DNA of 41,988 nt from Saprospiraceae bacterium (lineage in GTDB: Bacteria; Bacteroidota; Bacteroidia; Chitinophagales; Saprospiraceae): assembly GCA_020627985.1 (NCBI GenBank), contig JAHDFV010000001.1:12968-54955 (forward strand). The letters run 5' to 3'. The notes below the pieces were generated by a model. That model saw nothing but the letters and a program-made list of their open reading frames with translations. It had not been told where the DNA came from and did no database searches. Of the stretch, positions 21,068 to 26,749 are shown piece after piece (the stretch's first letter is position 1; each line of letters begins with the position of its first letter). The translations under genes and the position numbers were made by a program.

Positions 21068-22198
21068 TTGAAAAGATTAGTTTCATTAGTTTTTGCAGGA
21101 ATAATTGGCGGCTTAATCACTTTAGCTGGTTTACAATTTATGACTTCACAAACCGAAGAAGCCAAAGAAAATTATACGCAACCTGTTAATAACATCAACG
21201 TAAAAACAGGGGGAAGCGCTGTGCCTTTTGATTTTAAAAGTGCTGCAAAAAAGGCAATGCCTGTTGTTGTTCATATAACAGCTTCTGAGTCAGATGAATT
21301 AGCTGGACGTAGTAAGAAAAGAAGTGGAAATCCATTCGAAGACCTATTTGGAGGTTTTGGGGGAGGTCCTCAAAAAGGGACAGGTTCTGGAGTGATTTAT
21401 TCAGATGATGGATATATAATTACCAATAATCATGTGGTTGACTTTGCAGATATTGTAGAAGTTACTTTATATGATAATAGAACCTTCCAAGCCAAAGTAG
21501 TTGGAAAAGATGAAACGACAGATCTTGCCGTTCTTAAAATTGAAGCGGATGATTTGCCCACACTTAAAATTGCAGATTCTGATGCTGCAGAAGTAGGTGA
21601 GTGGGTCTTAGCTGTTGGTAATCCTTTTGACTTGACATCTACAGTAACTGTAGGTATAATTAGTGCTAAAGCAAGAGATATCAATATTCTGAGAGGTAAA
21701 AAATCTATAGAATCATTTATACAAACAGATGCTGCTGTTAATCCTGGGAATTCAGGAGGTGCATTGGTTGATGCTGAAGGAAGACTCTTAGGAATTAATT
21801 CAGCGATAGCAACACAAACGGGATCATTTGCTGGTTATTCATTTGCGATACCAACAAATATTGCTATTAAAGTTGTAAATGATTTAATTAAATATGGTAA
21901 AACGCAAAGAGGTTTAATCGGTATTGATATAGAAGATTTAGACAGTGATCAAGCAAGAGAGCTTAACTTAGATATTAATCAAGGGGTTGTAATTGTAGGA
22001 GTAATTGATGGTACTGCAGGACAATTTGCAGGTTTACTGCCTGATGATGTAATTACGAAAGTAGATAATAAAATAGTTAAAACAGGTCCAGAACTACAAG
22101 AGTTAGTAGGAAGGAAAAGACCTGGTGATATTGTGAATTTGACTATCCTTAGAAAAGGAAAAGTAAAAGAAATACCTGTCCGTTTAAAGGCAGGGTGA
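21068..22198 (+). CDS. DegP/HtrA-type periplasmic serine protease
   Basis: The 376-residue protein has an N-terminal signal or anchor helix (LVSLVFAGIIGGLITLAGL), a Gly-rich loop (about 85-100), and a trypsin-like domain with His122 (NNHVVDF), Asp152 (TTDLAVLKI) and Ser229 (NPGNSGGALV). One PDZ domain follows (about 275-372). A single PDZ makes it DegS/DegQ-short-like rather than two-PDZ DegP. The expected role is degradation of misfolded envelope proteins. The start is TTG (21068), immediately followed by AAA-AGA; no ATG gives a better N-terminus. Confidence 0.92.
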   Translation: MKRLVSLVFAGIIGGLITLAGLQFMTSQTEEAKENYTQPVNNINVKTGGSAVPFDFKSAAKKAMPVVVHITASESDELAGRSKKRSGNPFEDLFGGFGGGPQKGTGSGVIYSDDGYIITNNHVVDFADIVEVTLYDNRTFQAKVVGKDETTDLAVLKIEADDLPTLKIADSDAAEVGEWVLAVGNPFDLTSTVTVGIISAKARDINILRGKKSIESFIQTDAAVNPGNSGGALVDAEGRLLGINSAIATQTGSFAGYSFAIPTNIAIKVVNDLIKYGKTQRGLIGIDIEDLDSDQARELNLDINQGVVIVGVIDGTAGQFAGLLPDDVITKVDNKIVKTGPELQELVGRKRPGDIVNLTILRKGKVKEIPVRLKAG

Positions 22199-22250: not shown

Positions 22251-22291
22251 GCGTCCGTCTCGCTTTTTGTGGGGCGGGCGTTTTTTATTTT
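22251..22291 (+). terminator. Terminator of the protease gene
   Basis: A GC-rich 13-bp stem (22251-22263 with 22269-22281), using five G-U pairs in RNA, closes a loop of five T and is followed by a T-run. The GC content stands out against the AT-rich surroundings. Confidence 0.8.
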
Positions 22292-22359: not shown

Positions 22360-23838
22360 ATGCCATTAAAAATGTCAAATACCGTTGTAAATAATGTACT
22401 AAAAGGAGGTGAATTTATCATTAAAGATTCTTCACCTGAAGATATATTTATTCCAGAACAATGGGATGAAGAACAACAAATGATCAAGCAAACGATTATC
22501 GATTTTGTAAATAAAATGGGTGATACGAGTAAGAAAATTGAAAACCAACCTAAAATTTTAAAAGAAGCTGGAGAACTTGGTTTTTTGGGTTGCCACATAC
22601 CAGATGAATATGGAGGGATGCTACTAGACACAAACACAGTTACCATGATCTGTGAATATGTAGGGGGAACATATGGAGGCTGGTCAACTTCTTTTGCAGC
22701 ACATACGGGTATAGGCATGTTACCAATTCTTTATTATGGTTCAGAAGAAATCAAACAGAAATATTTACCAGAACTTGCTGGAGGTACAAAATATGCTGCT
22801 TATTGTCTAACAGAACCCAGTTCAGGTTCAGATGCCCTAGCAGCTAAAACTAAAGCAGATTTATCAGAAGATGGCAAATCTTATATTTTAAATGGGCAAA
22901 AAATGTGGATTTCCAATGCAGGATTCGCAGATGTTTTTATCGTTTTTGCTCAAGTAGATGGTGATAAATTTACAGGCTTCGTTGTAGATGCTGATAGTGA
23001 AGGAATTAGCCTTGGAGCGGAAGAAGACAAAATGGGAATTAAAGGCTCTTCTACTCGTCAAGTTTTCTTTGAAAATGTACACGTTCCTATTGAAAATGTA
23101 TTAGGAGAAATTGGAAAAGGACATTTAATTGCCTTCAATGTTTTAAATGTAGGTCGATTTAAACTAGGTGCTTTAACAATTGGTGGCTGCAAGAAAGCTA
23201 CAGATATAAGTGTTAAGTATGCCAATGAAAGAAAACAATTCAAACAGCCCATTTCTAATTTTGGTGCGATTCAATATAAATTAGCGGAACAAACTATAAA
23301 AACCTTTACTCTAGAATCATCAGTGTACAGAGTGTCCGATATGATCAAGGACAAGAAAGATAGTTTACTCGCTACTGGTATGTCTTATTCAGATGCTTTA
23401 TTGGAAGCAGCAGAAGAGTATGCTGTTGAATGTGCGATCTTAAAAGTTTATGGATCTGAAGCAGCAGATTATTGTGTAGATGAGGCCGTTCAAGTTCATG
23501 GAGGTTATGGCTTTTCCGAAGAGTATGCTGTTGCTGGGGCGTATAGAGATGCACGAATTAATAGAATATACGAAGGAACTAACGAGATCAATAGAATACT
23601 TTCTGTGAGTATGTTATTAAAAAAGGCAATGAAAGGTCAATTGGATATTGTTGGACCAGCTTGGGCTGTTCAAAAAGAATTGTCTTCTATGCCCAGCATG
23701 GAAACAATGGAAGGAAAGTATGCTCCTGAACAAAAGGCAATTTCTGATTTCAAGAAAATGATTTTAATGGTAGCAGGTTCTGCTGTAAAAGAACAAATGG
23801 ATAGAAAATTAAATTTAAAAAATGAACAAGAAATATGA
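22360..23838 (+). CDS. Acyl-CoA dehydrogenase, N-terminal 492 residues before an in-frame TGA
   Basis: This is the catalytic part of a VLCAD/ACAD9-like flavoprotein that oxidises acyl-CoA in beta-oxidation. It shows the family start LKGGEFIIKD, the FAD/substrate motifs YCLTEPSSGSDA and MWISNAGFADVFIVFAQ, the dehydrogenase signature QVHGGYGFSEEYAV, and RIYEGTNEINR with the presumed catalytic base Glu405. It ends at TGA 23836-23838. The next codon is ATG, and the same frame continues for 104 residues that match the expected C-terminal extension. Full-length relatives are, from memory, about 600 residues. The start may be ATG 22360 or ATG 22372. Confidence 0.9.
   Translation: MPLKMSNTVVNNVLKGGEFIIKDSSPEDIFIPEQWDEEQQMIKQTIIDFVNKMGDTSKKIENQPKILKEAGELGFLGCHIPDEYGGMLLDTNTVTMICEYVGGTYGGWSTSFAAHTGIGMLPILYYGSEEIKQKYLPELAGGTKYAAYCLTEPSSGSDALAAKTKADLSEDGKSYILNGQKMWISNAGFADVFIVFAQVDGDKFTGFVVDADSEGISLGAEEDKMGIKGSSTRQVFFENVHVPIENVLGEIGKGHLIAFNVLNVGRFKLGALTIGGCKKATDISVKYANERKQFKQPISNFGAIQYKLAEQTIKTFTLESSVYRVSDMIKDKKDSLLATGMSYSDALLEAAEEYAVECAILKVYGSEAADYCVDEAVQVHGGYGFSEEYAVAGAYRDARINRIYEGTNEINRILSVSMLLKKAMKGQLDIVGPAWAVQKELSSMPSMETMEGKYAPEQKAISDFKKMILMVAGSAVKEQMDRKLNLKNEQEI
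23836..23838 (+). other. In-frame TGA interrupting the acyl-CoA dehydrogenase
   Basis: Codons read ...GAA-CAA-GAA-ATA-TGA-ATG-AAT-ATT... . Homologous enzymes, as I recall them, read EQEI-L-MNI here, so one T-to-G change of TTA would create this stop. birA, the protease gene and the first thioredoxin-like gene end naturally at TGA, so TGA is a real stop in this organism. Confidence 0.85.
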
Positions 23839-24153
23839 ATGAATATTTCTGATATGATGATACATTGTTTTAATGCAGAATCTACTTTATTAAGAGTTCA
23901 AAAAATAAAGAATTTAGATGCAAGCCATTCATTAGAAGTATATGAAGCGATATTAAAAACATATATTCATGATATCACTTCATTAATTCAAAAATCAGCT
24001 ACGGATGCTTTAGTTTCCTTTGCAGATGGTGATCTTTTAAACGTTATGTTGAAAGGTGTGAAAAGATTCTCAAATTATCCGCCACAGAATGTGAAAAACT
24101 TAAGAAGGCTTATCGCTAAGAAATTAATAGAAGAAAATCAATATTGTTTTTAA
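23839..24153 (+). CDS. Acyl-CoA dehydrogenase C-terminal extension (104 residues after the TGA)
   Basis: The frame continues directly from the upstream gene and opens with ATG touching the TGA, so reinitiation is possible. The protein (MNISDMMIHCFNAESTLLRV ... FADGDLLNVMLKGVKRF ... PPQNVKNLRRLIAKKLI ... QYCF) is the helical C-terminal domain of the long acyl-CoA dehydrogenases. It has no independent catalytic motif. With the upstream frame and the TGA codon it adds up to 597 codons, the usual full length. It is either a fragment of a disrupted gene, a separately translated subunit, or the result of a base-call error. Codon use looks like its neighbours, with no sign of decay. Confidence 0.75.
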   Translation: MNISDMMIHCFNAESTLLRVQKIKNLDASHSLEVYEAILKTYIHDITSLIQKSATDALVSFADGDLLNVMLKGVKRFSNYPPQNVKNLRRLIAKKLIEENQYCF

Positions 24154-24180: not shown

Positions 24181-24219
24181 AAAGGAGCAATACTATTTTG
24201 TTAGTGTTGCTCCTTTTTT
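24181..24219 (+). terminator. Terminator of the acyl-CoA dehydrogenase
   Basis: AAAGGAGCAATACT (24181-24194) pairs with AGTGTTGCTCCTTT (24203-24216) with one G-U pair, followed by T residues. Confidence 0.85.
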
Positions 24220-24227
24220 AATAAAAA

Positions 24228-24254
24228 AATCCTTTCCCGATTAGGAAAAGGATT
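24228..24254. other. Second hairpin after the dehydrogenase terminator
   Basis: AATCCTTTCC (24228-24237) pairs with GGAAAAGGATT (24244-24254) with one bulge. An A-run precedes it, so it could act as a terminator for minus-strand transcripts. Confidence 0.45.
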
Positions 24255-25327: not shown

Positions 25328-26749
25328 ATGGCAAGACAAGTTTTAGAACCAGAACAAAAAGCATTAGAAATAAATTTAGATCCTTCAATTTATGGTGCTT
25401 TCGCAGAAATAGGGGCAGGTCAAGAAGTAGCAAGATTTTTTTTCAAAGTAGGTGCAGCAGCAGGAACAATCGCCAAAACAATGTCTGCATATGATAAAGT
25501 CGTATCAGATGATATATATGGGCCAGAAGTTTCTGGACGGTATGTATGTGAATCTCGATTATATAAAATGTTAGATCATGAATATGATTTAATAATTAAT
25601 CGATTAAGAGAAGAGAGACCTGAAGCAAAGCTTTTTGCTTTTGCAGATACCGTTTCTGCTATTAATTATTCCAGAACAATAAAAGGAAGTGGTTGGGTAG
25701 GCATTCGCTTTCAATTGCATCCAAAATCAGAACCGAGTGAAGTTGTCCTTCATGTGAAAATGCAGGATAAAAATAATACACTTCAACAGCAAGCTGTAGG
25801 TATCTTGGGTGTGAATTTATTATATGCTTGTTATCATTATCATGATGATCCAGAAACGTTTATTGTTTCGTTAATGGATCAATTGGATGAAAGAGTCAAG
25901 ATCGATATGATTCGAATGGATGGTCCCGTTTTTAAAGAAATTGATCATCGTTTATTGAGTTTATATTTAGTGAAGAATGGTTTATGTGATGTAACCATGT
26001 TTAATTCGGATAAGAGAAATATTCATGGTTCAGAATTCTTATATAAAGCCCAAGTTCTTGTAGTGAGAGGCAGTTTTAGACCTGTTACCCATGTGAATTT
26101 GGATATGCTCAACCGTAGTTTTGAACAATTTAAAATGGAGCCTGATGTTATTCCAAAGAAGGCTAATTTAATGACGGAAATTACGATTGAAAATCTTAAA
26201 GCTGATGGTGAAATTGATGAAAAAGATTTTCTAGATCGTACAGATTTATTGTGTAGTTTGGGTCAAACGGTTATTGTATCTAATTGCAATGAACGATATA
26301 AATTAATGAATTATTTATCCGATTATAAAGTAACAAAAGTAGGAATAGTTATTGGGGCAAGAGAAATGCTAAATTTGGTCAATGAAAAATACTACCAAAA
26401 TGTTGACGGTAGACTTTTAGCTGCATTTGGAGCATTGTTTTCTCATGAAGTTAAATTGTATGTTTATCCTGCTTTACAAGAAGGAAGTTCCGAATTAATG
26501 GTATCTAAAAACCTACCAATTCCTGAAGGAATTAAATTTTTATACAAACATTTAGAAGAAAGAGGACAGATAGAGGATATTAAAGAAATAAATCCTGATA
26601 TATTGCATATTTTTTCCAAAGAGGTTTTACATATGTTACAAACAGGTGAAGAAGGATGGGAAAAAATGGTCCCAGATTCGGTGGCAAAAATGATTAAAGA
26701 AGATTGTCTTTTTAATTATCCTTGCCAGAGAATGGAATTTGAATATTAG
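25328..26749 (+). CDS. Conserved protein of unknown function (about 470 aa)
   Basis: The 473-residue soluble protein has no signal peptide or membrane helix. I recognise it as a highly conserved bacterial family with hallmarks ALEINLDPSIYGAFAEIGAG, SGRYVCESRL, FAFADTVSAINYS and GWVGIRFQLHP, and a second half containing ANLMTEITIENLK and GRLLAAFGALFSHEVKLYVY. Relatives often carry misleading automatic names such as TonB-dependent receptor or nicotinate-nucleotide adenylyltransferase. Neither fits: there is no barrel, plug, signal or HxGH motif. Function is unknown. It leads a plus-strand run ending in hemD. Confidence 0.75.
   Translation: MARQVLEPEQKALEINLDPSIYGAFAEIGAGQEVARFFFKVGAAAGTIAKTMSAYDKVVSDDIYGPEVSGRYVCESRLYKMLDHEYDLIINRLREERPEAKLFAFADTVSAINYSRTIKGSGWVGIRFQLHPKSEPSEVVLHVKMQDKNNTLQQQAVGILGVNLLYACYHYHDDPETFIVSLMDQLDERVKIDMIRMDGPVFKEIDHRLLSLYLVKNGLCDVTMFNSDKRNIHGSEFLYKAQVLVVRGSFRPVTHVNLDMLNRSFEQFKMEPDVIPKKANLMTEITIENLKADGEIDEKDFLDRTDLLCSLGQTVIVSNCNERYKLMNYLSDYKVTKVGIVIGAREMLNLVNEKYYQNVDGRLLAAFGALFSHEVKLYVYPALQEGSSELMVSKNLPIPEGIKFLYKHLEERGQIEDIKEINPDILHIFSKEVLHMLQTGEEGWEKMVPDSVAKMIKEDCLFNYPCQRMEFEY

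Follow-up and report, generated by a model that had tools for sequence, protein, structure and literature searches.

A FadE-like acyl-CoA dehydrogenase (ACAD) gene in a draft Saprospiraceae genome is interrupted by a single in-frame TGA found in no relative compared, and the stop is probably a real nonsense mutation, or a strain-level variant, in an otherwise intact gene. The gene lies in a stretch of 41,988 nucleotides (the window) on contig C71 of a 4.07-Mb draft of 445 contigs that is 82.66% complete. An open reading frame on the forward strand (22360 to 23838) runs for 492 codons and ends in the TGA at 23836 to 23838. An ATG at 23839 adjoins this stop directly, and the same frame stays open for 104 more codons to a TAA ending at 24153; given the base composition, an open run of 104 codons has a chance of ~1e-4.

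The catalytic part (22360 to 23835) scores 666.5 bits on its own against the NF058590 profile (curated cut-off, 600), which identifies it as a FadE-like ACAD, and the three core ACAD domains (N-terminal, middle, and C-terminal; PF02771, PF02770, and PF00441) each exceed their gathering scores within it. Of the 586 positions of NF058590, 1 to 481 are matched before the TGA and 483 to 585 after it. The C-terminal extension, PF21263 (96 positions), is not matched as one chain, as the TGA divides the match into positions 2 to 27 before the stop (22.9 bits, below the cut-off of 27) and 29 to 96 after it (54.9 bits, over the cut-off). The 104 codons and TAA at 23839 to 24153 therefore encode most of PF21263 in the frame of the catalytic part. 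These coordinates and split profile matches confirm the original prediction of a catalytic core and a C-terminal tail lying in one frame and separated by TGA-ATG. Among 20 other window proteins scanned, 17 had a match over the curated cut-off.

Hairpins flank the ACAD gene on both sides, at 22251 to 22281 (+), 24181 to 24220 (+), and 24228 to 24254 (-); two of the three are terminator-like by scan and the third by a sub-threshold Rfam match. This third hairpin, 3' of the gene at 24181 to 24220, is perhaps a terminator: it matches an Rfam 3'UTR hairpin family at 34.3 bits (gathering score, 48.4) and is not among the matches listed by the terminator scan.

The read-through frame was modeled with AlphaFold2 together with 37 of 101 homologues (mean pLDDT, 87.5; pTM, 0.90). 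Residue 493, the position of the stop, is the fourth residue of helix 490-517 in the model. Truncation at the TGA would leave helix 455-480 of the C-terminal extension in place and remove the four helices that end the extension, 490-517 (all but the first residues), 525-554, 557-570, and 578-592. The invariant Glu of the YEGTNE stretch (E405), which we take to be the catalytic base, is within the part kept, and on this model the truncated core may be partly active. Among solved structures, 3owa (TMq up to 0.93) and 2z1q (up to 0.85) are nearest in fold, followed by ACAD9 and VLCAD (0.71 to 0.73). FadE-type ACADs (NF058590; PDB 3owa and 2z1q) share the domain order and the length of ~597 residues, and 3owa and 2z1q match the read-through model over nearly its whole length, whereas here the TGA splits PF21263 after its first ~27 positions. 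VLCAD and ACAD9, the mitochondrial very-long-chain ACADs, have the same overall fold and a C-terminal extension but show 28 to 31% identity in structural alignments and are free of the stop.

The stop position was compared in an alignment of 102 rows comprising the window and 101 distinct homologues, with exact duplicates counted once and with a short contig-edge locus (L088) and the loci of the same genome (L001 to L007) left aside. All 101 other rows carry a sense codon, so in this comparison the stop is unique to the one genome. The column reads Leu in 54 rows, Val in 16, Ile in 15, Thr in 7, Met in 7, Cys in 2, and TGA in one (the window); the residue in relatives is thus hydrophobic or Thr or Cys, and mostly Leu. 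All six same-genus orthologues have Leu. The original prediction gave the lost codon as Leu, and the comparison with same-genus genomes bears this out.

Zero-gap TGA-ATG spacing favors reinitiation of translation, and the arrangement could in principle reflect gene fission, in which the 492-residue core and a 104-residue C-terminal subunit, reinitiated at the ATG after the TGA, assemble together. Constraint on the tail (see below) is compatible with such a split, and in the model the break comes shortly past a loop, on the fourth residue of helix 490-517, which would be a tolerable place for one. In the modeled split, however, the core would retain helix 455-480 and the tail would carry the four helices that follow, which argues against fission. 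Furthermore, 94 of the 102 rows, the window among them, have Met in the column after the stop; the adjacent ATG is therefore an old internal Met position, and no special start has to be invoked to explain why it adjoins the stop. When 150 family genomes were searched with the 104-residue half, 119 gave a match and 31 none, and a stand-alone C-terminal frame was not seen among the matches listed, which are the stronger ones. Frames in that listing are full-length but for five short ones. Four of these (G169, G159, G138, and G133) run off a contig end, and the fifth (G018) has 571 codons with no stop before the contig end. Two matches flagged as containing a stop (G160 and G158) were rejected, as each has its terminal stop only. 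Since neither the aligned homologues nor the matches listed include a split ACAD, the suggestion of reinitiation or a conserved split finds no support in relatives, and gene fission is very unlikely.

The gene was compared across 60 genomes, including this one. Six of eight same-genus genomes have an orthologue at 78 to 84% identity with an open frame of 594 to 640 codons, and in the other two (G003 and G004) the best match is only a paralogue at roughly 61%. The interrupted genome itself has an intact paralogue at 48% (contig C172). Loss of the gene looks tolerable given these two genomes with the ~61% paralogue only and the intact 48% paralogue here. A second FadE-like paralogue, at 61 to 62% to the window gene, is listed in six of the eight same-genus genomes; it is not among the matches from the interrupted genome, an incomplete bin in which the next best match is at 48%.

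Gene order among the same-genus loci is only partly conserved. In one genome (G001, locus L038) the whole block of HD, HtrA, ACAD, methyltransferase, and the gene at 25328 is conserved. HtrA is upstream in three of the four same-genus loci with at least 1.5 kb of upstream sequence (present in G001, G007, and G005; absent from G002), while G006 and G008, with <200 bases upstream, fall outside this count. The methyltransferase is downstream in two of the five loci with at least 1.1 kb (present in G001 and G006; absent from G007, G002, and G008). Orthology is accordingly based on identity together with partial gene order.

The tail after the stop carries no mark of decay. Its identity to the six same-genus proteins is 57.7 to 67.3%, and among those six it is 58.7 to 74.0%; the ranges overlap, with the window at the low side. 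At near-invariant columns, defined as the same residue in 95% or more of the other rows, the window has changed 0 of 13 in the tail, 0 of 10 in residues 426 to 492, and 0 of 134 before that. In a codon model of nine taxa, tail omega was 0.028 on the window branch against 0.032 on the remaining branches, approximately background, although absolute values mean little here because synonymous sites are saturated at genus level and the window branch hit its bound. Freeing the three window-branch omegas gained only 1.9 lnL, whereas forcing tail omega to 1 over the whole window branch cost ~94 lnL. Because of the synonymous saturation, limits on how long the tail could have evolved neutrally late on this branch were recomputed with three branch-length caps; the upper limit is ~0.14 to 0.25 substitutions per codon depending on the cap, a loose bound given saturated sites and short fits (60 iterations). 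No relaxation of constraint after the stop was detected in these tests, and the data are compatible with a short neutral period. The expectation that neither half has decayed thus holds, and it follows that the stop is young, not real, or tolerated. Absence of decay is expected equally under readthrough or a separately made tail chain.

A stop that is not real would be an error of assembly or base calling, or a base from a minority strain that entered the consensus of the metagenome-assembled genome, with the real gene intact. This is the less probable reading but carries a substantial chance, as the record is a bin of 445 contigs that is 82.7% complete and a unique stop between undecayed halves is what an error predicts. 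Many putative pseudogenes in bacterial assemblies are reported to stem from assembly errors, and such spurious pseudogenes resemble the present case, a draft-assembly gene that is intact apart from a single internal stop (PMC11017572). Set against this is a scan for other genes split by stops, which found no second gene split by an in-frame stop in ~396 kb of the genome, so the assembly does not look error-ridden; the test catches in-frame stops with sizeable coding-like stretches on both sides, and not frameshifts.

The scan required at least 100 coding-like codons before a stop and at least 40 after it, and so misses stops near gene ends. It gave 17 in-frame neighbor pairs in 299 kb (window gene included) and 7 in 96 kb. 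The 23 pairs besides the window gene were searched against Pfam with the stop replaced by a placeholder residue, and, as we read the best-stretch ranges, none of these pairs has a domain that extends across the stop. Twelve have separate matches on both sides, seven have matches on one side, and four have none (one in L182 and three in L186); the test is weak for the 11 with matches on one side only or none. Among all 24 pairs, one family running across the stop was seen only in the ACAD. The three TGA pairs in L186 are on the minus strand opposite other genes, presumably those for EF-Tu, ribosomal protein L11, and, more tentatively, RpoB, and are taken as antisense artefacts. At L216 (12150 to 13664), a yicC-like gene and a guanylate kinase gene share a frame with only a TAA and a few codons between them, and the two full domain sets mark them as two genes. 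At L182 (5065 to 5763, minus strand), three coding-like in-frame segments of 75, 106, and 50 codons are separated by single TAAs; the last two segments, when joined, have no Pfam match.

TGA is an ordinary stop codon elsewhere in this genome. It ends 4 of 33 likely genes in the window, interrupted ACAD included (37 ORFs of at least 100 aa minus four overlapping antisense), and 23 of 282 coding-like segments of at least 100 codons in ~396 kb, a count that includes the ACAD and some antisense frames. The upstream HtrA gene (21068 to 22198) also terminates at a TGA, four residues beyond its PDZ match. In addition, prfB is present (contig C144, L140), and its 5' end has a leader of 20 codons that closes with CTT TGA C, from which a +1 shift enters the main frame; we take this to be the RF2 autoregulation (programmed-frameshift) site. 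A TGA-recoded organism of the code 4 or 25 type was rejected, since TGA ends HtrA, prfB is present, and the ~396 kb scanned gave no other gene split by TGA. The earlier argument that recoding is unlikely because other genes end at TGA is thereby strengthened.

Selenocysteine insertion, or reassignment of TGA, would be suggested by the identity of the stop as TGA but is extremely improbable. No selA match was found in the genome (82.7% complete), in a search that matched 4 of 14 control genomes, one of them over the cut-off. All five tRNA-Sec matches fall below the cut-off and correspond to tRNAs for Leu (two), Phe, Trp, and Cys. Homologues mostly have Leu at the stop position, with Cys in 2 of 101, and the sequence after the stop has no fold beyond that of shuffled sequences (z = -0.07). 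A selenoprotein was thus rejected for want of selA, tRNA-Sec, or a fold after the TGA in the 82.7% complete genome, and reassignment is opposed by prfB and by the segments that end in TGA.

Leaky reading of a real TGA, mostly as Trp, could keep the full-length enzyme, helped by a tRNA-Trp(CCA) in which 27:43 is unpaired. The only tRNA-Trp found in the genome (contig C128, 1402 to 1475; L148) has the anticodon CCA and a 4-bp anticodon stem, with G27:A43 unpaired and with A9 and G24 kept. The best DNA match of this contig among tRNA-Trp loci is the same-genus genome G006, yet this and the other three same-genus tRNA-Trp loci fetched (G008, G002, and G005) are all paired at 27:43. Among the best 30 tRNA-Trp loci, 27:43 is unpaired in three, from this genome, G033, and G056. 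The tRNA is of the "Blastocrithidia-like" type described in PMC13092985, in which 27:43 is unpaired without A9C and G24A, but no recoding is seen in the sampled genes of this genome. According to that source, 4-bp stems without A9C or G24A make up 2.0% of tRNA-Trp genes, and overexpression of a 4-bp version increased UGA readthrough ~2.5-fold in Escherichia coli (PMC13092985). The constraint on the tail also fits leaky reading, as does the report that in-frame stops in constrained bacterial genes are widespread and mostly short-lived (PMC7918605).

Several observations weigh against leaky reading. All 4-bp stems together account for 8.9% of tRNA-Trp(CCA) genes and are the only form in ~6.5% of standard-code genomes, so that coincidence is easy, and in vitro work cited in the same source obtained no UGA readthrough from the stem change alone (PMC13092985). 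Trp occupies the stop position in 0 of 101 homologues, no stimulatory fold was detected after the stop, and ~396 kb of the genome yielded no further gene interrupted by an in-frame TGA. Leaky reading at a level that preserves the enzyme is therefore improbable, and a link between the tRNA-Trp type and this TGA is a guess. Even more doubtful is the proposal that the tRNA-Trp with unpaired 27:43 was recently acquired and reads UGA well enough for the ACAD to work, as a first step to UGA reassignment.

The preferred reading remains a nonsense change. A single-base mutation would have struck the vertically inherited ACAD gene so recently that the downstream part has not decayed, or the stop may be a strain-level variant captured in the consensus. 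Translation would mostly end at the TGA and yield a 492-residue core lacking the final four helices of the C-terminal extension; this product would probably be unstable or of reduced activity, and leaky reading of UGA would add at most a little full-length protein. Of the four options in the original prediction, a recent null mutation and a sequence error both agree with all measurements, while reinitiation finds no support in relatives and readthrough has no positive evidence at this gene. The stop is known from one draft assembly and most likely has one of the first two origins, mutation or error.

Either way, the find belongs to a known kind, an ordinary nonsense change or an assembly error. 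The short-lived stops surveyed in PMC7918605 are likewise single stops in genes that still look constrained, although that survey focuses on stops common to at least two species, whereas the window stop occurs in a single assembly. No literature on this particular case was found among the best matches listed.

Whether it arose by nonsense mutation or by assembly error, the stop matters little beyond a caution that one stop in a draft genome turns one gene into two. A readthrough case would matter, as the same genome carries a tRNA-Trp type tied to UGA leakiness. If the TGA is real in the reads and junction peptides are found, the gene would be a natural, testable case of early UGA tolerance in a standard-code bacterium.
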